Below are positions 3,178 to 14,738 of a DNA stretch of 21,214 nt, in pieces. The notes beneath the pieces are model-generated. The model did no database searches. It saw nothing but the letters and a program-made list of their open reading frames with translations, and was not told where the DNA came from. Within the stretch, counting starts at the first letter, position 1; the number at the start of each line of letters is the position of its first letter. Source of the stretch: a virus; the IMG/VR virus record IMGVR_UViG_3300038619_000043, positions 1-21,214 of that record. The stretch is one strand, 5' to 3'. Both the position numbers and the translations under genes were made by a program.

Positions 3178-3207
3178 TTGCACAAAAAGTACAAGAAGTG
3201 GCATTAT
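3178..3207 (+). promoter_or_regulatory. Possible promoter for the bracketed gene
   Basis: TTGCAC (3178-3183), an 18-bp spacer and CATTAT (3202-3207) form a moderate sigma70-like pair. The predicted start is about 14 nt before the ATG at 3228. This would let the gene be expressed on its own although it sits between leftward genes. Confidence 0.35.
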
Positions 3208-3227
3208 TTTCGGGAAAAAGGAGATTT

Positions 3228-3608
3228 ATGGGACTAGAGTGGCTTAAAGATAATCAAGAGGAAATTTTATTCTTCTCTCAATTAGTTCACGACTATCAAA
3301 AACTGGCCGCAATGAGGGTTATGCAAACTCTCCGAGAAAAATGGAGATTGTCCCAAGAAGATTGCCAACATCTCATGATTTCGATATTTGGACGGCAGAT
3401 GAACGAGGCTTGTTATTCCGTCGGAGGAGCAATGATGGCGACTAAGATGAGAATCGATGAGATTCTTCCTAGCGCTACGATAGAACTCCTGAAGACGGCG
3501 CTCATAGACTCGGGCATAAATGATCCAAATCAAAGGAAAGACGTGGACATTACTTTAACTCATTGGAGAGAGTTTCTTTCGAAGGGAAATTCGGAATTTA
3601 TGGTATGA
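3228..3608 (+). CDS. Hypothetical helical protein in a repeat-bounded cassette
   Basis: The start at 3228 is chosen because AAGGAG lies four bases upstream; an in-frame GTG at 3198 has no such site. The 126-residue product is mostly alpha-helical, with no signal peptide or membrane span, and I recognise no family. It is the only rightward gene between the leftward portal and the leftward DUF551 gene. It has a possible promoter of its own and lies between two identical 22-bp repeats. These are moron-like features: a self-contained gene added to a phage genome. Confidence 0.7.
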   Translation: MGLEWLKDNQEEILFFSQLVHDYQKLAAMRVMQTLREKWRLSQEDCQHLMISIFGRQMNEACYSVGGAMMATKMRIDEILPSATIELLKTALIDSGINDPNQRKDVDITLTHWREFLSKGNSEFMV

Positions 3609-3636: not shown

Positions 3637-3870
3637 TTAGAGGGATTCAGGAGGCTCCGGTAATGGCATCCAGTGGGTTACTTTCCCTAAATCCAAGTCG
3701 GACCTTTGTGTCATAAAAATTCCCTCATTGAGAATATAATTTCCAACAAATATAGGTCTTTCCATGAAATCATCATCTGGATGAAACCCCTCTTCCCTGG
3801 CATCGTGGTAAACTAAAACATCATCGCAATGATCTGGAACTCGTTCTTCGATCCTTATCCATTCATTCAT
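3637..3870 (-). CDS. DUF551 domain protein
   Basis: The 77-residue protein fits the DUF551 pattern over its whole length. It starts with WIRIEERVPDHCDDVLVYHD, has an acidic middle, and ends with the family signature VTHWMPLPEPP. DUF551 proteins are small, common in phages and prophages, and have no known function. The start overlaps the end of the upstream Cys-rich gene by 8 bp, so it appears to be the last gene of the leftward operon. Confidence 0.85.
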   Translation of the reverse strand: MNEWIRIEERVPDHCDDVLVYHDAREEGFHPDDDFMERPIFVGNYILNEGIFMTQRSDLDLGKVTHWMPLPEPPESL

Positions 3871-4450: not shown

Positions 4451-4740
4451 CAGAACTTAACCGGATTAGTTTGTTGAATCGAAGACACTGGAACTGCATA
4501 CGGCCAATAATAGAGAAATGGGCCATAGTACGGAGGAGGAGAAACCTGCACCATCCCCTTACCACCGGCGCCACCCACACCGCCTTGAGTAGCAGAATAA
4601 GGCAAAGGCCATGGAAATGAACGGGCACGCGGTGGAGTTTGGTTGGCAACCATCCCATTTCCCCCAGAATAGCCGCCTAATCCGCCTCCACCGGCGCCTC
4701 CAGTTGAAGTATCTACAGGAGGATTAAATCGAGAAGTCAT
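4450..4740 (-). CDS. Gly/Pro/Tyr-rich low-complexity protein
   Basis: This 96-residue protein has a Gly-rich N-terminal half (TGGAGGGGLGGYSGGNG), a central Pro/Arg stretch, a second Gly patch, and a Tyr/Pro-rich tail (PPPYYGPFLYYWPY). There is no signal peptide. Its ATG overlaps the stop of the upstream gene. Such composition suggests a disordered or self-associating protein. Another frame on the same strand (4410-4658) is taken as a shadow because it breaks the junction pattern. Confidence 0.6.
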   Translation of the reverse strand: MTSRFNPPVDTSTGGAGGGGLGGYSGGNGMVANQTPPRARSFPWPLPYSATQGGVGGAGGKGMVQVSPPPYYGPFLYYWPYAVPVSSIQQTNPVKF

Positions 4741-4970
4741 GATTTGCTCTCTTTTTTATTCTTCTCCATTTTAGCATATATCTTTATTCCCGACTTAGAA
4801 ACATGCTCAATAATCTGTTGAATAGTAATATCATGTCTAAAGGAGATTTTTATCATCATATGCATAGCTACAGCCGCAAAAAGTGGCTCTGATATTTTAT
4901 TTTCAATGCAAAAATCAACTAATTTATTTTGTAAATTATTCCCTTCTTTTTGAAATTCTTCTTCATTCAT
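4737..4970 (-). CDS. Small helical paralog family member H
   Basis: The 77-residue protein has a charged first helix, a hydrophobic core beginning SEPLFAAVAMHMMIK, then DITIQQIIEHV and a Lys-rich tail. This matches the pattern of the paralogs at 8110-8714, 11693-13150 and 14499-14738. Its first 14 bases, ATGAATGAAGAAGA, are identical to those of member A (start 13150). Start and stop overlap both neighbours as ATGA. Function unknown. Confidence 0.7.
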   Translation of the reverse strand: MNEEEFQKEGNNLQNKLVDFCIENKISEPLFAAVAMHMMIKISFRHDITIQQIIEHVSKSGIKIYAKMEKNKKESKS

Positions 4971-5516: not shown

Positions 5517-6245
5517 TCAGGAGACGCTTCCATCGAAATCTCGACATTTCAGCTTGAACATGACGGGATCGCCATTTCGGAATAGCATGAGCGGAAAGCT
5601 ACGAGCGATTATTCCTTCCATTCTCTGAGGGATCGAGCTGCATTGACTAAGAGGATTGGACTTAACGAACTCGACAATCTCATGCTCTTGCATGAATCCC
5701 AGCTCAGGAGCGAAGGGGATTTCTAGCTTTTTGGCTATATCTTCGACAGCCAGTCTTTCTAGCCACCAATCACCTACTCTGACATCGAAAAGACAAAAGC
5801 CTGGATCTTTTCGATAGTTCCCGCCACAGGACTGTATCTTAGGTCCATAGCCCTCACCGTATAGAACAACCTTAGAAACATCCTTATAGAATGCAGACTC
5901 GATCCTTTCGGCCGTAAAGTGTGTTTGCAGGTATTCTAGGAGGTGGCATGGAAGTTGGGCATTTGAGGTTCGCCCATGAAAATTAACTCTTCTACCAAAT
6001 TCTTCCACCACCTCATCTCCGTCTCGAAAATAGACAAGGGGGTATTTGTCGTAGTAAATCCGGATATTGGTTCCATCCACCTTTTCTTGGACGCTCCAAT
6101 TTCGGATATTAGAGAACTCAGAACGAGCATAGTCTCCAACAATGAAAGACTGTCGACCTTCTTGATGATCCTTGGATTTTTTCTTTGCCTCATTAAAATA
6201 CCATCCCTGGCGTTTCCAAAGGCTGTTTATTTTTGGGTATTCCAT
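5517..6245 (-). CDS. RNA ligase family protein (Rnl2-like nucleotidyltransferase)
   Basis: RNA ligases join RNA 3'-OH and 5'-phosphate ends through an AMP-lysine intermediate. The 242-residue product carries all the expected motifs: I, KVDG with the nucleotidyl Lys55; III, YGEGYG (129-134); IIIa, FCLFDVR (150-156); IV, EGIIAR (210-215); V, FKLK (230-233). The N-terminus YPKINSLWKR and the context EKVDGTNIRI are typical of the phage branch of this family. The start at 6245 has GAGG four bases upstream; an upstream GTG (6269) is less likely. The protein ends soon after motif V, so it is a catalytic core without the C-terminal domain of T4 Rnl2. No polynucleotide kinase is nearby. A role in repairing tRNA cut by host defences is inference; DNA nick sealing is a less likely alternative. 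Confidence 0.88.
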   Translation of the reverse strand: MEYPKINSLWKRQGWYFNEAKKKSKDHQEGRQSFIVGDYARSEFSNIRNWSVQEKVDGTNIRIYYDKYPLVYFRDGDEVVEEFGRRVNFHGRTSNAQLPCHLLEYLQTHFTAERIESAFYKDVSKVVLYGEGYGPKIQSCGGNYRKDPGFCLFDVRVGDWWLERLAVEDIAKKLEIPFAPELGFMQEHEIVEFVKSNPLSQCSSIPQRMEGIIARSFPLMLFRNGDPVMFKLKCRDFDGSVS

Positions 6246-6395
6246 GAATCCTCTATGAATAAAAACCACATTATTTTTCTAACAACCTCTTTCCAGCGGT
6301 CTCTTAACCTGACGAAAAATTGGAGCTCCCTCCACCAAAATTTTAGAAATGGTCGCGTAAATGGAGGATCATAAATCCCACAAATGTCCCTATAT

Positions 6396-7868
6396 TCACG
6401 AGAACAATGGATTAGCTTTCTTAAACATGTCTTCGGCTTCTCTATCCCCGATTTTATTCTTCCCAGCGTCAACATAGAGTCTGACTGCAATAGCGAGATA
6501 GCGCAGGGAATCGGCGGCGTGGCTCCATTGATCGTGTACCGGCTTGTCTTTGTAGACACTTCTGGTTTCATTGTATTCCTTACGATAGTTGTAGATGGCC
6601 TTGATTAGGTGTTTGCATCGAGTATGATCGATCCAAAAGCGCGGAAAGATACCCCGCACAGCTTCAATGCCGTCCTCAAGTGAGAGCTTGAGGGTAGGCA
6701 AGGTAATAAATCTAATTCCGAGGGATCTTCCAACCTCTCTAGCTGACAATCCACTACTAAAAGCGTGGGATTCAATATCGTGGGGAGCATAGTGATCTGC
6801 GTAAATGTACGGCTTACTTTGAAGAATTCTCGCGTAATGAGCGAGCCCCTCTCCTTCGTTCTCATAGTGGTCCACAATATGGACCTCTCGTCCGCAAATC
6901 TGGAAAAAGCAGATTGAACACGCGTCACCGTATCCGATGTCCCAGGCTGTATACACTGGTAACTGCGTATCGACGGGGACGTTTGTAACTCTTTTTTCAT
7001 TTTTCGCATCCTCCACGTATTGAGAGTAGTAAGATCCTTGGATACCGAGGGTAAATGAGCAATAAAACTCCTGTTGAACGAAGTCCTCGCTCATTCCAGA
7101 GCTTCTCTCCTTCTCTATCTGCTTAGTGGTTATAGCTTTCGTGTCGTCCACCGTAAGAAGCTGACTAAACCATTCAGGATTGTTCTTAGCCATGTCATAG
7201 AGGGTTTTCGCATGATTTTCTCCCCGTGGCGTGAATACAAAAACTGCCCAACCATCATTTTCAGCCAAAATCGGGCGTATGAACTCCCATGCTTTAGGAT
7301 CTTGTATGCTGTATTCAGAGAAAACACAACCAATAGGATTTGTACCCACAATAGTGTCAATGTTGTCCGAGCCAATAACTTGAATAATCGAACCATTATG
7401 CAACCTTATTTTCATTTCTGTTGAGTTTGGCTGTCCTAAGACAAGTTCTTTGGGCAAATGATCGAGCATGCGAAGGCCATCTTTATCTATACCGTCCCAA
7501 AGGATCTTCCTTCCCTGGCCATAATGAGGGAAAAAGTAGTAGTAGATCCCTTTCTGGGATGCAGCACGAGAGATCATGTAATTCCAAGCGCTCTTGTCCT
7601 TTCCAGCGCGGCGATGCCACACCAAAACAGCGCGCTTTTTACCGCTTTTCATTGCGTGCCAAAACTCTTTCTGGTATTCTCTAGCCTCATACTTGTGGGG
7701 AATGGTCAAATTGAACGCCTGTACGTTCTCTCGCTTGGACAGCGGTACCGTTTGGCCTAATCCCCCTTTTTGGACGGTGCCTGGAGTACCCGGTGGAACA
7801 TACTGGCGTACCGGTGGCGATGTTTTTTTGTTTCTGGCGAGGCTTCTTTGAGAGAACGATTTAGCCAT
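6396..7868 (-). CDS. terL: Terminase large subunit
   Basis: This 490-residue packaging motor has both expected domains. The ATPase has the variant Walker A WHRRAGKDKS (84-93) and Walker B-like IGCVFSEY (179-186) with Glu185 in the catalytic position. The nuclease shows the RNase H-like pattern: Asp310 in AWDIGYGD, then ADHYAPHD (357-364) and DQWSHAADSLRY (446-457). The first 50 residues are basic and Pro-rich. It pumps DNA into the prohead through the portal and cuts concatemers. TerS lies upstream with three small genes between, an unusual spacing. A 47-bp gap separates it from the gene before it. Confidence 0.93.
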   Translation of the reverse strand: MAKSFSQRSLARNKKTSPPVRQYVPPGTPGTVQKGGLGQTVPLSKRENVQAFNLTIPHKYEAREYQKEFWHAMKSGKKRAVLVWHRRAGKDKSAWNYMISRAASQKGIYYYFFPHYGQGRKILWDGIDKDGLRMLDHLPKELVLGQPNSTEMKIRLHNGSIIQVIGSDNIDTIVGTNPIGCVFSEYSIQDPKAWEFIRPILAENDGWAVFVFTPRGENHAKTLYDMAKNNPEWFSQLLTVDDTKAITTKQIEKERSSGMSEDFVQQEFYCSFTLGIQGSYYSQYVEDAKNEKRVTNVPVDTQLPVYTAWDIGYGDACSICFFQICGREVHIVDHYENEGEGLAHYARILQSKPYIYADHYAPHDIESHAFSSGLSAREVGRSLGIRFITLPTLKLSLEDGIEAVRGIFPRFWIDHTRCKHLIKAIYNYRKEYNETRSVYKDKPVHDQWSHAADSLRYLAIAVRLYVDAGKNKIGDREAEDMFKKANPLFS

Positions 7869-7915
7869 CTTGCATTAGCCTTTTTAGTGTTATTACTTTC
7901 GGACCCTCTCATACA

Positions 7916-8110
7916 CTATTGAACTTGCATTCTCGTGGTGACGATGACCTCAGAGACTTCGCCGACGAACTCTGATCTAGTTTTATCTATAAAATCCTTA
8001 AGTAGAGGATCTGATTCGTGAAGACATACCTCTCTATATTCTAGAAACTTCTTTTTGAATGTAACGTGTTCATTCTTAAGAGTTACCGTGATTTCAATTG
8101 GAGTGCTCAT
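7916..8110 (-). CDS. Hypothetical 64-residue protein
   Basis: The ATG at 8110 overlaps the TAA of the preceding paralog as TAATG and has AAGAAGG upstream. The product has a strand-rich N-terminus (IEITVTLKN) and a helical, charged remainder. It lies between a paralog-family gene and terL. No family recognised. Confidence 0.6.
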   Translation of the reverse strand: MSTPIEITVTLKNEHVTFKKKFLEYREVCLHESDPLLKDFIDKTRSEFVGEVSEVIVTTRMQVQ

Positions 8111-8472
8111 TATTTTGCCTTCTTTTTCATCTTCATAGACTTGTCACACTTCTCGATCTTCTTATCCCGACGGATGTCTATCTTCACGAGCTTATCCATT
8201 TTCTTATCCATTGATTTCTTAACTTCTTTAATCTTCTTGTCCACGCTATTACTCCTTTTTTCTTTACCGTATAATTCGTGATAATTTTTCAAATCAGATA
8301 GCATTTCATTTATAGAAAGACCCAGTGCTATCGACATTGTATGAAATCCGGTTCTGAAAACCGCCAAAGTTGCAAGAGGAGGAACAATGCCCCCATCCCT
8401 AAAACAAACTAGAATTGCTTCAACAACATCAAATGCAAAAACCTGCCAATCTACTTCTTTTTCTTCGCTCAT
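8110..8472 (-). CDS. Small helical paralog family member G, with Lys-rich tail
   Basis: The start at 8472 is supported by GGAG seven bases upstream. Residues 1-75 of 120 match the paralog pattern: a first helix, then VPPLATLAVFRTGFHTMSIA and GLSINEMLSDLKNYHELY. Unlike other members it carries an extra tail of about 45 residues in which roughly half are Lys or Arg. The tail may bind nucleic acid; that is inference. Confidence 0.7.
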   Translation of the reverse strand: MSEEKEVDWQVFAFDVVEAILVCFRDGGIVPPLATLAVFRTGFHTMSIALGLSINEMLSDLKNYHELYGKEKRSNSVDKKIKEVKKSMDKKMDKLVKIDIRRDKKIEKCDKSMKMKKKAK

Positions 8473-8483
8473 CAATCGCTCCT

Positions 8484-8714
8484 CTATTCGTTTTTCATGT
8501 TGTCTATTTCTCGGTCATACAGGTCAGCAACCTCGTTAACCAATTGCCTGAATTCTTCTTTTGGGAACCCCATCCCCAGAGATACCCTAGAAAACCCATT
8601 ACCGAAATAGGACAAGACTATATTTGGAGGAAATCCACTCATTTCAAACTGCTCGAGTGAACGGGTTACCATTTCCACTATTTCATCAGCCGAACAATTA
8701 TTCGGATTTTTCAT
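8484..8714 (-). CDS. Small helical paralog family member B
   Basis: The start at 8714 overlaps the terS stop as TGATG and has GGAG upstream. The 76-residue product shows the family core: FPPNIVLSYFGNGFSRV, then GMGFPKEEFRQLVNEVADLY, with a charged end. Its place between terS and terL is notable because its closest look-alikes sit next to the repressor gene. Function unknown. Confidence 0.72.
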   Translation of the reverse strand: MKNPNNCSADEIVEMVTRSLEQFEMSGFPPNIVLSYFGNGFSRVSLGMGFPKEEFRQLVNEVADLYDREIDNMKNE

Positions 8715-9202
8715 CACTTACTCCAAGGCAGTTCGTTTATAAACACATTAAAATGCGTAGAAGTAACCTCATCAGCGGGCTTGTCTCTGTACTGCAATCT
8801 CTGCTTAGAGAGCCATATAAGCATAGGAACGTTCCCCTTCATCGCCATCTCATGCATCTTGCTTCGGATAGAGGCCTTTCCTGCAAACTCGCCTTTCTTG
8901 ACCAGCTCATGGCAATGCGTTTCTAGCGTGTTGACGGAGCATCCCATAGCCCAAGCGATCTCCTCTTGGGTACAATCTTCTGCGGCCATATCATAGATCC
9001 GATCTTGGTGGAGCTTGGAGAAGCCAGGGCCATTTTTCTCTTTATTGGCCAGAATCTCCTGATCACTTAGCTGAACGGACACACCCAAATGACCAGGATC
9101 CTGAGAGCGTATAGGGGACGCTTCTTTAAGAGGGGCATTCCTCTTCTTCTTCATATGACTTGCGATAGCAGCCTTGGCTCTGGCGGATTTAGGGCGAATC
9201 AT
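8714..9202 (-). CDS. terS: Probable terminase small subunit
   Basis: TerS recognises phage DNA and stimulates TerL. The 162-residue product has a basic, flexible N-terminus, a helix-turn-helix at about 77-98 (CTQEEIAWAMGCSVNTLETH), and the segment NVPMLIWLSKQRLQYRD (124-140). That segment resembles the G-N-x-x-M-x-I-W-L-x-K pattern common in small terminase-like DNA-binding proteins. It lies upstream of terL in the same operon. The alternative is another phage DNA-binding protein of this fold. Confidence 0.75.
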   Translation of the reverse strand: MIRPKSARAKAAIASHMKKKRNAPLKEASPIRSQDPGHLGVSVQLSDQEILANKEKNGPGFSKLHQDRIYDMAAEDCTQEEIAWAMGCSVNTLETHCHELVKKGEFAGKASIRSKMHEMAMKGNVPMLIWLSKQRLQYRDKPADEVTSTHFNVFINELPWSK

Positions 9203-9600
9203 ATGTCTACTTTATGATTCAGAGACTTAGACACCACCTTTGCCTCGTGTCCGTAGTATCCATTATGTGCATTGTATGCCACGAACTGAAGAGTTCCTCT
9301 GTCTGTTTCTATATTGACGCACATCATTCCGCCCTCGTCTAACCCGTATTTCGGAAGCATTTTCTTATTTAGACAATCGTCTACAACGTCTATACAAACA
9401 AGAGATGCCCCGATAAAGTCATTTGGATTATCTTGACACCAGAAATAACCCCATTCTTCGCAACATTGATGGAAACTATTTATCGTCAAATCTATGGATT
9501 GTTCCGTAGTGATCACGCGGAACCCTTCTCCAACGCAAGCCCTACGGGGCACATCGGAAAACAATTCTTCTATAGAAACTATTTTTTCATTCATAATCAT
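9199..9600 (-). CDS. Conserved phage hypothetical with HNGYYGH motif
   Basis: The 133-residue protein ends in a strand-rich region, GTLQFVAYNAHNGYYGHEAKV. That type of motif recurs in unnamed phage proteins; I know no assigned function. Start choice is uncertain: ATG 9600 forms an ATGA overlap with the upstream 49-residue gene, while ATG 9594 has a slightly better spaced GGA. Its stop overlaps the terS start. Two His and several Cys residues could bind a metal, but this is a guess. Confidence 0.65.
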   Translation of the reverse strand: MIMNEKIVSIEELFSDVPRRACVGEGFRVITTEQSIDLTINSFHQCCEEWGYFWCQDNPNDFIGASLVCIDVVDDCLNKKMLPKYGLDEGGMMCVNIETDRGTLQFVAYNAHNGYYGHEAKVVSKSLNHKVDI

Positions 9601-11060: not shown

Positions 11061-11236
11061 CTACTCTCCCTCTCATTCTTAGGTCGTATAAAAATATTTA
11101 GTTTCTTTTTTCTGTTTAGGCCATTAGTGAAATTTTGAACAACTCCTTTTTCCTTGAGGTCCGAAATCTCCTCTCTAGACAGAGCAATCTCAAGATAGTC
11201 GGTCCCCTCAAATCCCTCTTCAAATAGGAAGATCAT
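11057..11236 (-). CDS. Hypothetical 59-residue protein
   Basis: The ATG at 11236 lies inside the end of rusA (17-bp overlap) with GAGG seven bases upstream; the TGA overlaps the next start as ATGA. The product starts MIFLFEEGFEGTDYLEIALS and continues with a helix and a basic strand (KKKLNIFIRPK). Both junctions support it as a real gene. No function known. Confidence 0.68.
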   Translation of the reverse strand: MIFLFEEGFEGTDYLEIALSREEISDLKEKGVVQNFTNGLNRKKKLNIFIRPKNERESR

Positions 11237-11654
11237 CGTCTATCCTCGTGGGTTGAAAGGAATCAATAGGGATTATGCGAACGAGAGTATGAGCGCTTTC
11301 GTGATAGCGCTTGGTCATGCGAAGGTCTACAATCTGGGCATCATCTGCATAGAATACGCCCTTCATGATGTTGGTAATGAGATAAGCCAGATTATCCACG
11401 TCGGGCTTTTTGATATGATGAACCACGCCATTCAGCATTTGCGTTCTAAGGGTCCTAGAAACGCTTTTAATGGGCTCAAAGAAAAAGTGTAGATCTACCC
11501 TTACTGAGCATGTTAAAGGGCTGCTGGGGGCATAGGGCTTGATCTGCCAAAGAATTGACTGGGCTTCCTTGGCAGAGGGATTGTATGCACGCCCCCGAGC
11601 GAATCTGGTTTGTTTTTGTGGGATCGGATCGCCATGGATCTCGAACTGGATCAT
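11220..11654 (-). CDS. rusA: RusA-family Holliday junction resolvase
   Basis: RusA dimers cut four-way DNA junctions. The 144-residue length is close to E. coli RusA (120). Seen: the N-terminal GDPIPQKQTRFARGRAY, the acidic catalytic cluster KPDVDNL (83-89) with Asp85 and Asp87, the YADDAQIVDL segment (102-111), and a downstream Lys (115). All key positions of the family are present. It probably clears branched intermediates made by ERF/YqaJ recombination before packaging, which fits its place upstream of the terminase genes. Its weak ribosome site (AGG) lies in a hairpin described separately. Confidence 0.93.
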   Translation of the reverse strand: MIQFEIHGDPIPQKQTRFARGRAYNPSAKEAQSILWQIKPYAPSSPLTCSVRVDLHFFFEPIKSVSRTLRTQMLNGVVHHIKKPDVDNLAYLITNIMKGVFYADDAQIVDLRMTKRYHESAHTLVRIIPIDSFQPTRIDDDLPI

Positions 11655-11656
11655 TG

Positions 11657-11683
11657 AGTACCTGTGTTTTTCTCACAAGTACT
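11657..11683 (-). promoter_or_regulatory. Hairpin over the rusA ribosome binding site
   Basis: In the leftward transcript AGUACUUGUG and CACAGGUACU can form a 10-bp stem (nine Watson-Crick pairs and one G-U) around an AGAAAAA loop. It ends two bases before the rusA AUG. The AGG of the only plausible Shine-Dalgarno site is in the 3' arm. There is no U-run after it, so it is not a terminator. It lies where the paralog array ends and rusA begins. Confidence 0.55.
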
Positions 11684-11692
11684 ACAAAGTAT

Positions 11693-11914
11693 TTATTTAG
11701 AAAAGCCTTTCTTTTCTACTTCTGCATAAGGAATCAACGACTGTTCGAAAACGTGCATAAGCTCTGAGGATGGAATCCGGCATCTACTGGCCGCTGCCAA
11801 GTAGCAACTCAAAAATGCAGATAAAGCAATTTGCGGTCTATGTTCATATCCTTCTTTTATCATTCTTTTCATAAACGCTCTTCCGGCTTCTTTTTCTTCT
11901 TGTTCGGTTTTCAT
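11693..11914 (-). CDS. Small helical paralog family member C
   Basis: The 73-residue product has a charged first helix, then HRPQIALSAFLSCYLAAAS, then IPSSELMHVFEQSLIPYAEV, matching the family pattern. It is the last of six adjacent paralogs. The ATG overlaps the previous TAA (TAATG). A 38-bp gap holding the hairpin separates it from rusA. Confidence 0.7.
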   Translation of the reverse strand: MKTEQEEKEAGRAFMKRMIKEGYEHRPQIALSAFLSCYLAAASRCRIPSSELMHVFEQSLIPYAEVEKKGFSK

Positions 11915-12189
11915 TATTTTCCCCCGTTCTTGAACCTAGAGACCAGTTCTCGGATCTTTTTTATGTGGAATTCAATTTGATGTTCTTCGGATTCATTATT
12001 ACCTCCAGCCACCTCTTGCGCCTTCAAAAGGGCTCCTAAGGCCATAGCTCCAACTCCAAACAAGCACGCTATCATCGAGTTTGGAGAGGTTTTTCTAGCA
12101 ATAGCTTTATCTATTTCATTCTGTAGTCCCTTATCAAAGACTCTCATTGTTTCAATTTCATCTTGAAATTTGTCCATTAATTGTCTCAT
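11914..12189 (-). CDS. Small helical paralog family member J
   Basis: The 91-residue product has an N-terminal helix and the core KTSPNSMIACLFGVGAMALG. This is strikingly close to member A (GTSPVTMMVCLISSFCMIAA), two Cys-Leu-aligned segments in otherwise different proteins. After the core it departs from the pattern, with a Gly/Asn/Glu/His stretch where the others have the T-x-x-E helix. The hydrophobic core could be mistaken for a membrane span. ATGA overlap upstream. Confidence 0.7.
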   Translation of the reverse strand: MRQLMDKFQDEIETMRVFDKGLQNEIDKAIARKTSPNSMIACLFGVGAMALGALLKAQEVAGGNNESEEHQIEFHIKKIRELVSRFKNGGK

Positions 12190-12464
12190 TCCATCTCTTT
12201 AGATATTTCTTCGTAGGTTTCCATTACGATGTCCATTACCTGTTTCACTTCTTCCTTAGACCTCCCTTCCATAACCAGGGCATTTGCCAGCATGTTTACA
12301 CAAATAATAGAACCACAAGAGGCATTAACTTTATTTAAAATCATGCAATCTCGAATTAGCCCAAGAGCCCTCCTTACCTCGTCTTCTACCTCTTGTTCGG
12401 TCATTTTACTCCTGTGCTTCATGTCCATGCTCCTTATTGTATTTTTCATATCATTATCTGACAT
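12186..12464 (-). CDS. Small helical paralog family member D
   Basis: The start at 12464 has GAGG upstream and overlaps the preceding gene by 11 bp, giving 92 residues. An internal ATG at 12404 has a stronger AGGAG site and would give a 72-residue protein beginning MTEQEVEDEV, nearer the length of other members; both may be used. The core reads SCGSIICVNMLANALVMEG followed by RSKEEVKQVMDIVMETY, as in the family. The stop overlaps the next start. Confidence 0.68.
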   Translation of the reverse strand: MSDNDMKNTIRSMDMKHRSKMTEQEVEDEVRRALGLIRDCMILNKVNASCGSIICVNMLANALVMEGRSKEEVKQVMDIVMETYEEISKEME

Positions 12465-12660
12465 CTTCAAACCTCTCTGTGTAACTTTTAAGTGCAGCAT
12501 CGAACATAAGCCTCAGAAATTCCGGTGGCATTCCCGATCCGTAAGCAATATTGAGGATGGAATTCATCAGCGCCAGATACATGCTCGATCCTTTCTTCCC
12601 TTCACATAAGGATTTTAGTTGTTTGCAACACTCATCATATTCTTCTTTATCGTAACTCAT
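12454..12660 (-). CDS. Small helical paralog family member E
   Basis: At 68 residues this is the shortest member. After a Cys-containing first helix, the core is SSMYLALMNSILNIAYGSG, then MPPEFLRLMFDAALKSY. The ATG at 12660 overlaps the upstream stop as ATGA. No enzymatic residues are apparent. Confidence 0.7.
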   Translation of the reverse strand: MSYDKEEYDECCKQLKSLCEGKKGSSMYLALMNSILNIAYGSGMPPEFLRLMFDAALKSYTERFEDVR

Positions 12661-12917
12661 TCCTCATCCTCCGAATTAATCCGCAACATCTCTGGATATT
12701 GCTTAAGGAATTGCTTAAATTGTGCCTCGACTAGCTCTAAGGGAGCCCTCAGAGTTATCAGTCCCATGCCCATCACTTCCATCAATGCAAGGATGATGTT
12801 AGAAGGATCTGTATCAATCGGGGCTTTGTCCAATGCATGGAGAATGGCAGTCTTGGCCCATTCTATCTGGGCTCTAGCTTTTGGTGGGATCGGGGTTCCT
12901 TGGATTTTTTTACTCAT
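12657..12917 (-). CDS. Small helical paralog family member F
   Basis: The start at 12917 is preferred over an in-frame upstream Met (12932): it has AGAGG four bases upstream and makes the usual ATGA overlap. The 86-residue product has a basic N-terminus with IPPKAR, then TDPSNIILALMEVMGMGLI and APLELVEAQFKQFLKQY. The second core helix departs most from the consensus. Confidence 0.68.
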   Translation of the reverse strand: MSKKIQGTPIPPKARAQIEWAKTAILHALDKAPIDTDPSNIILALMEVMGMGLITLRAPLELVEAQFKQFLKQYPEMLRINSEDEE

Positions 12918-13150
12918 TTTTCCTCTTTCCATCTCTTAAATCGGTGTTTCATTGATTGTACCCATAGGTCAAATTCATCGTCGGTTAGACCTGTTCGTGC
13001 GGCTATCATACAGAAAGAAGAGATAAGGCATACCATCATGGTCACTGGCGATGTTCCTAGCTCAAGACCTTCGTTGATTGCTTTAGTGATATGTTCTTGA
13101 AATCGATCCATGGGATCTGTTAATTCTTTTTTTAGATCTTCTTCATTCAT
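12914..13150 (-). CDS. Small helical paralog family member A
   Basis: First of the six-gene array, directly after the repressor gene. The start at 13150 has AGGAGG upstream, the best ribosome site in the array. The 78-residue product shows the reference pattern: MNEEDLKKEL, then GTSPVTMMVCLISSFCMIAA, then GLTDDEFDLWVQSMKHRF and a charged tail. Helices are predicted throughout. Function unknown. Confidence 0.75.
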   Translation of the reverse strand: MNEEDLKKELTDPMDRFQEHITKAINEGLELGTSPVTMMVCLISSFCMIAARTGLTDDEFDLWVQSMKHRFKRWKEEK

Positions 13151-13410
13151 TGAGGTTGCCTCCTGTGTTTAAAAATATCCCTTAACTCCTTGATCGTAAC
13201 TACGCCCTCTGTTATCTCAGAGATTTTACGAGCAGTAATCCTAGATGGGGTATGCCCATGATTGATAATCCTGTAAATAGTATCGTCCGATATCCCGGCC
13301 TTTAAGGCAAAGGCCCTGATGTCGATTCCGTACTCTTCAATATACTCTTTTAATTCCATAAGTCGTTCATTTTTAATGGGTGTCTCTGTTTCTCCCAAAG
13401 AGGTTGCCAC
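13147..13410 (-). CDS. XRE/Cro-type helix-turn-helix regulator
   Basis: The 87-residue product has a helix-turn-helix at about 31-50 (IRAFALKAGISDDTIYRIIN), followed by HTPSRITARKISEITEG, typical of small phage repressors. It faces erf across a regulatory region and leads the leftward operon. The start is uncertain: GTG 13410 has no ribosome site, so the message may be leaderless; ATG 13359 gives 70 residues but would cut close to the domain start. It probably controls the divergent early promoters. A repressor in the same polycistron as terminase genes is unusual. Confidence 0.8.
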   Translation of the reverse strand: MATSLGETETPIKNERLMELKEYIEEYGIDIRAFALKAGISDDTIYRIINHGHTPSRITARKISEITEGVVTIKELRDIFKHRRQPQ

Positions 13411-13430
13411 ATCGTTAATTTAAGGTAAAT

Positions 13431-13480
13431 TGCTAATTTTTGCGGAAGTTTGCGAATTTTCTAGGATAAATGCGGATGAA
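13431..13480 (+). repeat. Decamer repeats in helical phase at the erf/repressor divide
   Basis: Ten-base units begin at 13431 (TGCTAATTTT), 13441 (TGCGGAAGTT), 13451 (TGCGAATTTT) and 13471 (TGCGGATGAA), spaced exactly 10, 10 and 20 bp apart. An overlapping dyad AATTTA-AGG-TAAATT lies at 13417-13431. The array is between the repressor and erf starts, so operator or iteron use is plausible. A weak rightward promoter (TTGCGG 13440, TAGGAT 13462, 16-bp spacer) overlaps it. Confidence 0.5.
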
Positions 13481-13522
13481 GTGATAGACTTTCGGCATAA
13501 ACAACAACCCAAGGAGGGTAGC

Positions 13523-14158
13523 ATGAACAAATCAGAACAAATCGGAGAGCTTTACGAGGCTCTCTCTAAAATGCAAGGAGCCCTCAAATCCGTTCCCAAG
13601 AATGGAAGAGCTCATCAAGAGCGCAAGTATTGCACTCTGGAAGATGTTTGGGAAACAGTACGCAAGCCTTTATCTGATAATGGCTTGGCTGTTACTCAGG
13701 CTATCGAGCATCATAATGATCAGTTCATGCTGATCACTGAGCTTGGTCATAAGTCCGGTCAATGGATGCGCAGCTTTTGTCCTCTCATGATGAAAGAGCA
13801 AACATCTCAAGGATTTGGATCTGCTGTGACTTATGCCCGTAGATATGGATTGGTTTCCTTGCTTGGTGTATGTCCTGATGAAGATGATGACGGTGAGAAA
13901 GCTGTGAAGAGCAAGCAGGAGCCTATTCCTGTGGAGACTAATAAGCCTAAGAAAACTGTTGAGCCTAAAACCGCAGAAGTTATCGAGCTAATCACTCGAG
14001 ATCAAAAGTCCGATCTTGAGCTCAGCCTAGTAGGATTCAAGGATTTAAGATCTACCATCCTGGAAAGATTGGGTGTAGATCAGCTCTATAAAGTCCCTGC
14101 ATCTAAGTACGACGATATTGTGGGATGGGTCAAGAAGCAGAAGGAAAAGGCTGCATGA
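13523..14158 (+). CDS. erf: ERF-family single-strand annealing recombinase
   Basis: ERF proteins bind single-stranded DNA and anneal complementary strands in phage recombination. The start at 13523 has AGGAGG five bases upstream; the longer frame from 13430 covers the regulatory repeats and is rejected. Seen in 211 residues: YCTLEDVWETVRKPL (36-50), NGLAVTQA (53-60), LGHKSGQWMRS (74-84), TYARRYGLVSLLGV (103-116) and the acidic run DEDDDGEKA, all in family order. The C-terminal third is Lys/Pro-rich linker plus a small helical region. It heads the rightward early operon and works with the YqaJ exonuclease downstream. Confidence 0.93.
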   Translation: MNKSEQIGELYEALSKMQGALKSVPKNGRAHQERKYCTLEDVWETVRKPLSDNGLAVTQAIEHHNDQFMLITELGHKSGQWMRSFCPLMMKEQTSQGFGSAVTYARRYGLVSLLGVCPDEDDDGEKAVKSKQEPIPVETNKPKKTVEPKTAEVIELITRDQKSDLELSLVGFKDLRSTILERLGVDQLYKVPASKYDDIVGWVKKQKEKAA

Positions 14159-14280: not shown

Positions 14281-14515
14281 ATTATGTAAGTTATCAGATA
14301 TAACTAAAGAACAAGTATTAAGTTGTATTAGATCAGATAAAAGAATGATGGATATTTATATAGAAGATTTGTTGAAAAAAGAAACTAAGGATATGTGGTC
14401 TATAAACCACGTGAGAGATTTGTATCACGATCATCGGGTATCCTGCACCATCCTTACGGATTACTTAGAAAGAATGTTTAAAGAAGAAGAGGTATTACAT
14501 GAAACAGCTAACTGA
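14270..14515 (+). CDS. Hypothetical 81-residue protein
   Basis: The start at 14270 has GAGG six bases upstream; a Met five codons earlier lacks one. The product is helical and charged with many Met, Asp and Lys. I cannot place it in the paralog family with confidence: its second half (VSCTILTDYLERMFKEEE) is only loosely similar. Its last codons, HETAN, overlap the next gene start by 17 bp. Confidence 0.65.
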   Translation: MEHKLCKLSDITKEQVLSCIRSDKRMMDIYIEDLLKKETKDMWSINHVRDLYHDHRVSCTILTDYLERMFKEEEVLHETAN

Positions 14516-14519
14516 AGAA
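14499..14519 (+). repeat. Gene-junction repeat, left copy
   Basis: A 21-bp element starting ATGAAACAGCTAACTGAAGA matches 14722-14742 at 19 of 21 positions. It serves as the end of one gene (HETAN stop) and the start of the next (MKQLTEE). The right copy does the same for the 79-residue gene and yqaJ (YETAN stop, MKQQTKE). Both overlaps are exactly 17 bp. Confidence 0.75.
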
Positions 14520-14738
14520 AGATTTAGTAAAATGGAAGAAGATGCAAAAAAGTTTTCGAATGTAGTACTTGAGTGTCTCGTTATTAACAATTTCGATTTC
14601 AGAAACGCTTCCTTTTTATTTGCGTGGTGTCTTTTTTCTGTATGTGCTGGAGGAGAACATAAGTCTATAGACGAAGTAGAGGAAATATTTAAAGAGTTAA
14701 TAAAATATAAAAGGAAACAATATGAAACAGCAAACTAA
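14499..14738 (+). CDS. Small helical paralog family member I (rightward operon)
   Basis: The 79-residue product has a charged first helix, the core FRNASFLFAWCLFSVCAGG, then SIDEVEEIFKELIKYK, matching the paralogs in the leftward operon. AGAGG lies six bases before the ATG. It is the only member found on the plus strand. Its two ends carry the same junction sequence, as if inserted between a pre-existing gene and yqaJ, or copied with its border. Confidence 0.7.
   Translation: MKQLTEERFSKMEEDAKKFSNVVLECLVINNFDFRNASFLFAWCLFSVCAGGEHKSIDEVEEIFKELIKYKRKQYETAN

Follow-up and report, generated by a model that had tools for sequence, protein, structure and literature searches.

The virus record analysed here, a 21,214-base fragment of a tailed phage that we call the window, carries a set of ten small genes (A1 to A6 and B to E) which, as judged by profile comparison, is one real family whose likeness goes beyond a shared hydropathy pattern. 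Our comparisons demonstrate the family, the slots that it occupies, its change in copy number and the speed of its divergence. It is possible, at a little below an even chance, that these are fast-diverging soluble three-helix-bundle proteins of phages with a P22-type portal, in which a re-surfaced scaffold binds host or rival proteins early. Besides the ten genes, the window encodes a P22-like portal protein (Pfam P22_portal, 2.7e-70), an RNA ligase, RusA, an HTH regulator, ERF, YqaJ, TerL and a TerS-like gene.

Results

All ten genes are open frames in tightly packed operons. Six of them lie on the minus strand behind a Cro/CI-type HTH regulator (13147..13410, minus strand; Pfam HTH_3, 1.1e-6), which heads the cassette and overlaps A1 by 4 bases. 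They are A1 (12914..13150; 78 aa), A2 (12657..12917; 86 aa), A3 (12454..12660; 68 aa), A4 (12186..12464; 92 aa), A5 (11914..12189; 91 aa) and A6 (11693..11914; 73 aa). The HTH gene and A1-A6 overlap one another by 1-11 bases, and we therefore regard them as one coupled cassette; 38 bases further on, a RusA resolvase gene (11220..11654, minus strand; Pfam RusA, 1.7e-18) forms the downstream boundary of the array. The ERF single-strand annealing protein (13430..14158, plus strand; Pfam ERF, 7.5e-20) is encoded divergently from the HTH gene, and E (14499..14738, plus strand; 79 aa) lies within the ERF-YqaJ recombination operon, where it overlaps both neighbours. On the minus strand again, B (8484..8714; 76 aa) and C (8110..8472) both lie in the TerS-TerL interval, C with a Lys-rich tail fused behind its family-like first ~75 aa, and D (4737..4970; 77 aa) lies in the TerL-portal interval. 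The ten genes and their coordinates in the initial annotation were right, apart from small corrections to four starts: B begins at ATG 8714 (or GTG 8717), C at TTG 8475 or ATG 8472, A2 at 12917 and A4 at 12464. Scans of the array for promoters and terminators gave nothing informative. The RNA ligase gene (5517-6269) adjoins TerL and has relatives in 10 related contigs.

Common descent of the ten genes, as the initial annotation had proposed, was examined by leave-one-out comparison of each gene with a profile of the others, with 300 full shuffles and shuffles keeping the hydropathy class as controls. Nine of the ten beat all 300 full shuffles (p 0.003 for A6), while A5 did not (p=0.16). Against the hydropathy-keeping shuffles, p was 0.003 for A1, A2, A4 and B, 0.037 for C, 0.04 for A3, a borderline 0.056 for E, 0.18 for D and A6, and 0.46 for A5. 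Profile E-values were 5e-7 for B, 5e-6 for A1, 4e-5 for A4, 6e-5 for A3, 0.0014 for E, 0.005 for A6 and 0.013 for D; the single-sequence hhalign result of A2 was weak (0.043), and A5 failed the profile tests. Three pairs stood out, namely B-C (z 8.5), A4-E (z 5.9) and A1-A5 (z 5.7 / 4.0). The two local likenesses seen initially were also found, a shared 14-base start in A1 and D (ATGAATGAAGAAGA) and a TSPxxMxxCL core in A1 and A5.

Relatives were collected by scans with TerL and portal, which gave 54 viral loci. When 3,740 ORFs were ranked by a profile of six small proteins from these relatives, eight of the ten genes of the window came out high on the list (E 1.5e-5 for B, 6e-4 for A4, 1.2e-3 for A1, 8e-3 for A3, 0.024 for D, 0.039 for E, 0.08 for C and 0.83 for A6), of which only A1, A3, A6 and C are independent, as the six proteins had been chosen for likeness to B, A4, D or E. 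The profile missed A2 and A5 among the same ORFs. The pooled profile of all members was too diffuse for counting members, and the E-values of an iterated HMM search were left unused because it drew in reversed decoys.

These results must be weighed against the view that there is no common family, and that independent small helical genes look alike through a shared amphipathic pattern. Reversed members do score surprisingly well with the profiles, so single-gene scores partly reflect a mere amphipathic three-helix pattern; pattern-keeping shuffles score well too, and A5 and D failed the stricter tests. At the level of the set, however, nine window genes (A5 left out) matched the profile of the relatives with a probability of 96%, an E-value of 4.9e-9 and a score of 45.8. 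The 20 hydropathy-preserving shuffles averaged 18.2 and never exceeded 25.4, and the reversed set reached 20.1. Together with the three outstanding pairs and the tandem paralogs of the relatives described below, this match makes independent origin highly improbable for the set, and for A1, A3, A4 and B that view is largely refuted. Compared separately with the relatives, the array reached 5e-7 and the four scattered genes 6e-5, while array and scattered genes compared with each other by profile gave no significant match. As a set the ten do form a family, though the membership of A5 and D is not secure. From their sequences we grade A1, A3, A4 and B as firm members, A2, A6, C and E as probable and D as weakly supported. 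A5 is a tentative member, tied to the family solely through its resemblance to A1.

Two further candidates were rejected: a gene of a related phage (G007_6356) failed all tests, and the window gene at 3198-3608 looked alike, yet is unrelated to the family. The protein encoded by the latter has 136 aa and is clearly related (z 20) to one encoded at 9184-9558 of G116, a phage contig from a Chlamydiota bin.

In an AlphaFold2 model built with a family alignment of 25 sequences, A1 is a three-helix bundle (residues 13-30, 35-53 and 57-77) with a mean pLDDT of 92.5. A5, modelled alone, also gave three helices, at low confidence (pLDDT 61). Among the two members modelled, the proposal of one shared fold is supported for A1 and only weakly for A5. 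Fold searches of the PDB and BFVD returned no structure match at E 0.001, which does not prove a new fold, since small helical bundles are hard to match. Most members are acidic, with a net charge that is mostly negative. The best 19-residue Kyte-Doolittle windows of A1, A2 and A5 reach 1.64-1.94, as would be expected if hydrophobic helix 2 spanned the membrane and the proteins were small membrane proteins of a holin-like or superinfection-exclusion kind; we consider this very unlikely, because most members stay below 1.6, under the usual membrane threshold, and the A1 model places helix 2 inside the compact bundle. The Lys-rich tail of C (8110-8238) matches a separate protein in the TerS-TerL interval of relatives (z 6-7), which suggests that C is a fusion of a probable family member with this tail protein.

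None of the ten proteins had a significant match in Pfam or PHROGs, and the members taken with their relatives gave nothing significant in NCBIfam, Pfam, PADLOC or PDB sequences; the best hit to PADLOC defence HMMs had an E-value of 0.016, among scattered single matches. A DinI-like identity (Pfam PF06183) was considered for A4, whose 29 C-terminal residues matched at E 0.0027. It was rejected, as the 18.4 bits fall short of the curated cut-off of 24.2, a single helix is covered and the other members lack the match. Viral contigs scanned with one protein at a time, B or a member of the G250 array (see below), gave no matches, nor did annotated phages searched by tblastn with A1 and B. One match in contig C141 of a Chlamydiia MAG runs antisense to a DnaA-like gene region and was taken as chance.

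That the family has duplicated repeatedly and diverged fast, as had been proposed, is supported by the set-level profile match and by a copy number that varies at conserved positions in relatives. In relatives whose portal is 75% and whose TerL is 67% identical to those of the window, only B among the ten has a BLAST-detectable relative (27% identity). Across the relatives, portal and TerL remain 67-75% identical, while the small helical genes lose BLAST-detectable orthologs. The genes recur in three slots, regulator-RusA, TerS-TerL and TerL-portal, with 0 to about 4 such genes in each, so the supposed copy-number variation in related phages was found. The regulator-RusA slot is occupied by family genes or genes that resemble them: six in the window, one in G002, two to three in G003, four in G006 and two, behind the regulator, in G009; the genes of G003 and G006 and that at G009 1076 were assigned by eye from size, position and helix pattern. 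Provided that its contig is circular, G002 carries about four further copies in the TerS-TerL interval. In an unbiased scan for paralogs within genomes, the window, G002, G003, G116 and G250 proved to encode duplicated small proteins with this architecture, and other duplicated small families turned up as well. From these comparisons, duplication appears to enlarge the family at a small number of fixed sites, mainly in the HTH-coupled cassette.

Among the other duplicated families, one with the ending VTHWMPLPxPP (window 3637-3870, G261 and G272) is often present in two or three copies. Another consists of tandem copies of a hydrophobic helix followed by a coiled coil (G003 35465-35858, G264 11174-12521, G269 7571-8055, G273 27265-28087); many end in a motif like EIKDFHGRLCxIEER, and the profile does not match the small helical family.

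The host of these phages is probably a member of the Chlamydiota (environmental chlamydiae), as far as contig assignments tell. The closest portal on a genome contig, 69% identical and the only one that close, is on a Chlamydiia MAG contig, and portal relatives were present in 10 of the 234 Chlamydiota genomes, the phylum searched. This host call rests on MAG bins, and the contigs are phage-sized or short, so a binning error is possible. In two Chlamydiota-binned phage contigs, G250 and G116, there are arrays that have this architecture and are clearly tandemly duplicated. The G250 array has five genes in two subgroups, one with internal identities of 32-51% and the other with 42%, and these tandem copies speak for the duplication claim. 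The G116 array has at least five genes, with pair z-scores up to 11.6. Compared with the window family by hhalign, the two arrays scored 15.6-18.3 against a class-shuffle maximum of 18.4, and with larger alignments the link reached P 1.8e-4. Homology is not proven by these scores, and the arrays may be analogues or far relatives of the window family. In related phages, a protein with a RING/U-box or MIZ-like domain (L002 9196-9816 and L003 13058-13705; matches of about 1e-5, which are on the cut-off or slightly under it) was observed, which is rare for a phage and fits an intracellular host.

Discussion

In the reading that we prefer, a conserved hydrophobic core would serve as the scaffold, and variable outer faces would bind different host or rival-phage proteins. 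The array proteins would be made early, together with the recombination genes, and their binding may counter defence or redirect the host. Early expression is suggested by the coupling to the HTH gene and to recombination genes. An arms-race role as originally supposed is not demonstrated by these data, since dN/dS among paralogs lies at 0.2-1.04, near saturation, and no known defence or anti-defence family was matched. This range fits loose constraint and gives no sign of positive selection.

The array genes might instead be partners of the HTH regulator, tuning the switch by binding the repressor of the phage itself or of a rival, in the manner of an antirepressor or immunity system. Translation of the array is coupled to that of the HTH gene, several relatives have their main array in the regulator-RusA slot, and the regulators themselves diverge fast (30-48% identity). 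We nevertheless hold this to be unlikely, as further copies occupy the TerS-TerL, TerL-portal and ERF-YqaJ intervals, the G116 array follows a large gene other than an HTH regulator, and a DNA-binding motif was not found in the proteins.

The placement of B, C and D next to packaging genes, beyond the early region, counts against our own proposal. Because of such copies near TerS, TerL and portal, which many relatives share, assembly or packaging roles, also raised in the initial annotation, have to be considered, in which the small proteins would act as adaptors of the terminase, the portal or the scaffold; that the Lys-rich tail of C is a separate TerS-TerL-interval protein in relatives fits as well. 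On balance a role as packaging or head-assembly accessories is distinctly improbable, given that the largest array of the window lies in the regulator-RusA region and divergence is far above that of TerL and portal. No family gene was found in the regulator-RusA slot of G008, which also speaks against this role, or in that of the Chlamydiia MAG contig, and 20 phages of a second clade gave no family match, a weak test as the profile is feeble at that distance.

Returning to a scaffold that binds host or rival proteins, several known systems offer a comparison. Anti-CRISPR (acr-aca) operons place several small genes and an HTH gene in one phage operon, as here; acr genes sharing an operon are usually mutually unrelated, whereas this array holds diverged copies with the HTH gene first, and no similarity to known Acr proteins was seen in Pfam, PHROGs or NCBIfam. 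The early host-takeover clusters of phages such as T4, SPO1 and phiKZ are likewise runs of small, fast-changing and poorly conserved genes. They differ from the present array, in which what seems to be a single fold recurs, and which belongs to phages with genomes of only some 40 kb. With P22-like tailed phages the window shares P22_portal and a P22-type ERF annealing protein; it differs in the small helical family, which was not found at E < 0.1 in five unrelated control phages.

Our literature search found neither a tailed chlamydial phage nor a similar family. The described Chlamydia phages are small single-stranded DNA gokushoviruses (PMC3091885). A wider reading, that in chlamydial tailed phages one three-helix scaffold has been repeatedly duplicated and re-surfaced into a modular kit of host-protein binders for anti-defence or takeover, and that the family extends to the arrays of G116 and G250 as distant members, is rather doubtful at present. 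Pfam, PHROGs and NCBIfam contain no entry for the family, which through its repeated duplication offers a testable case of scaffold re-use by phages. Chlamydiota-linked tailed phages with an expanding family of small proteins would help to approach the question of how phages cope with bacteria that live only inside cells.
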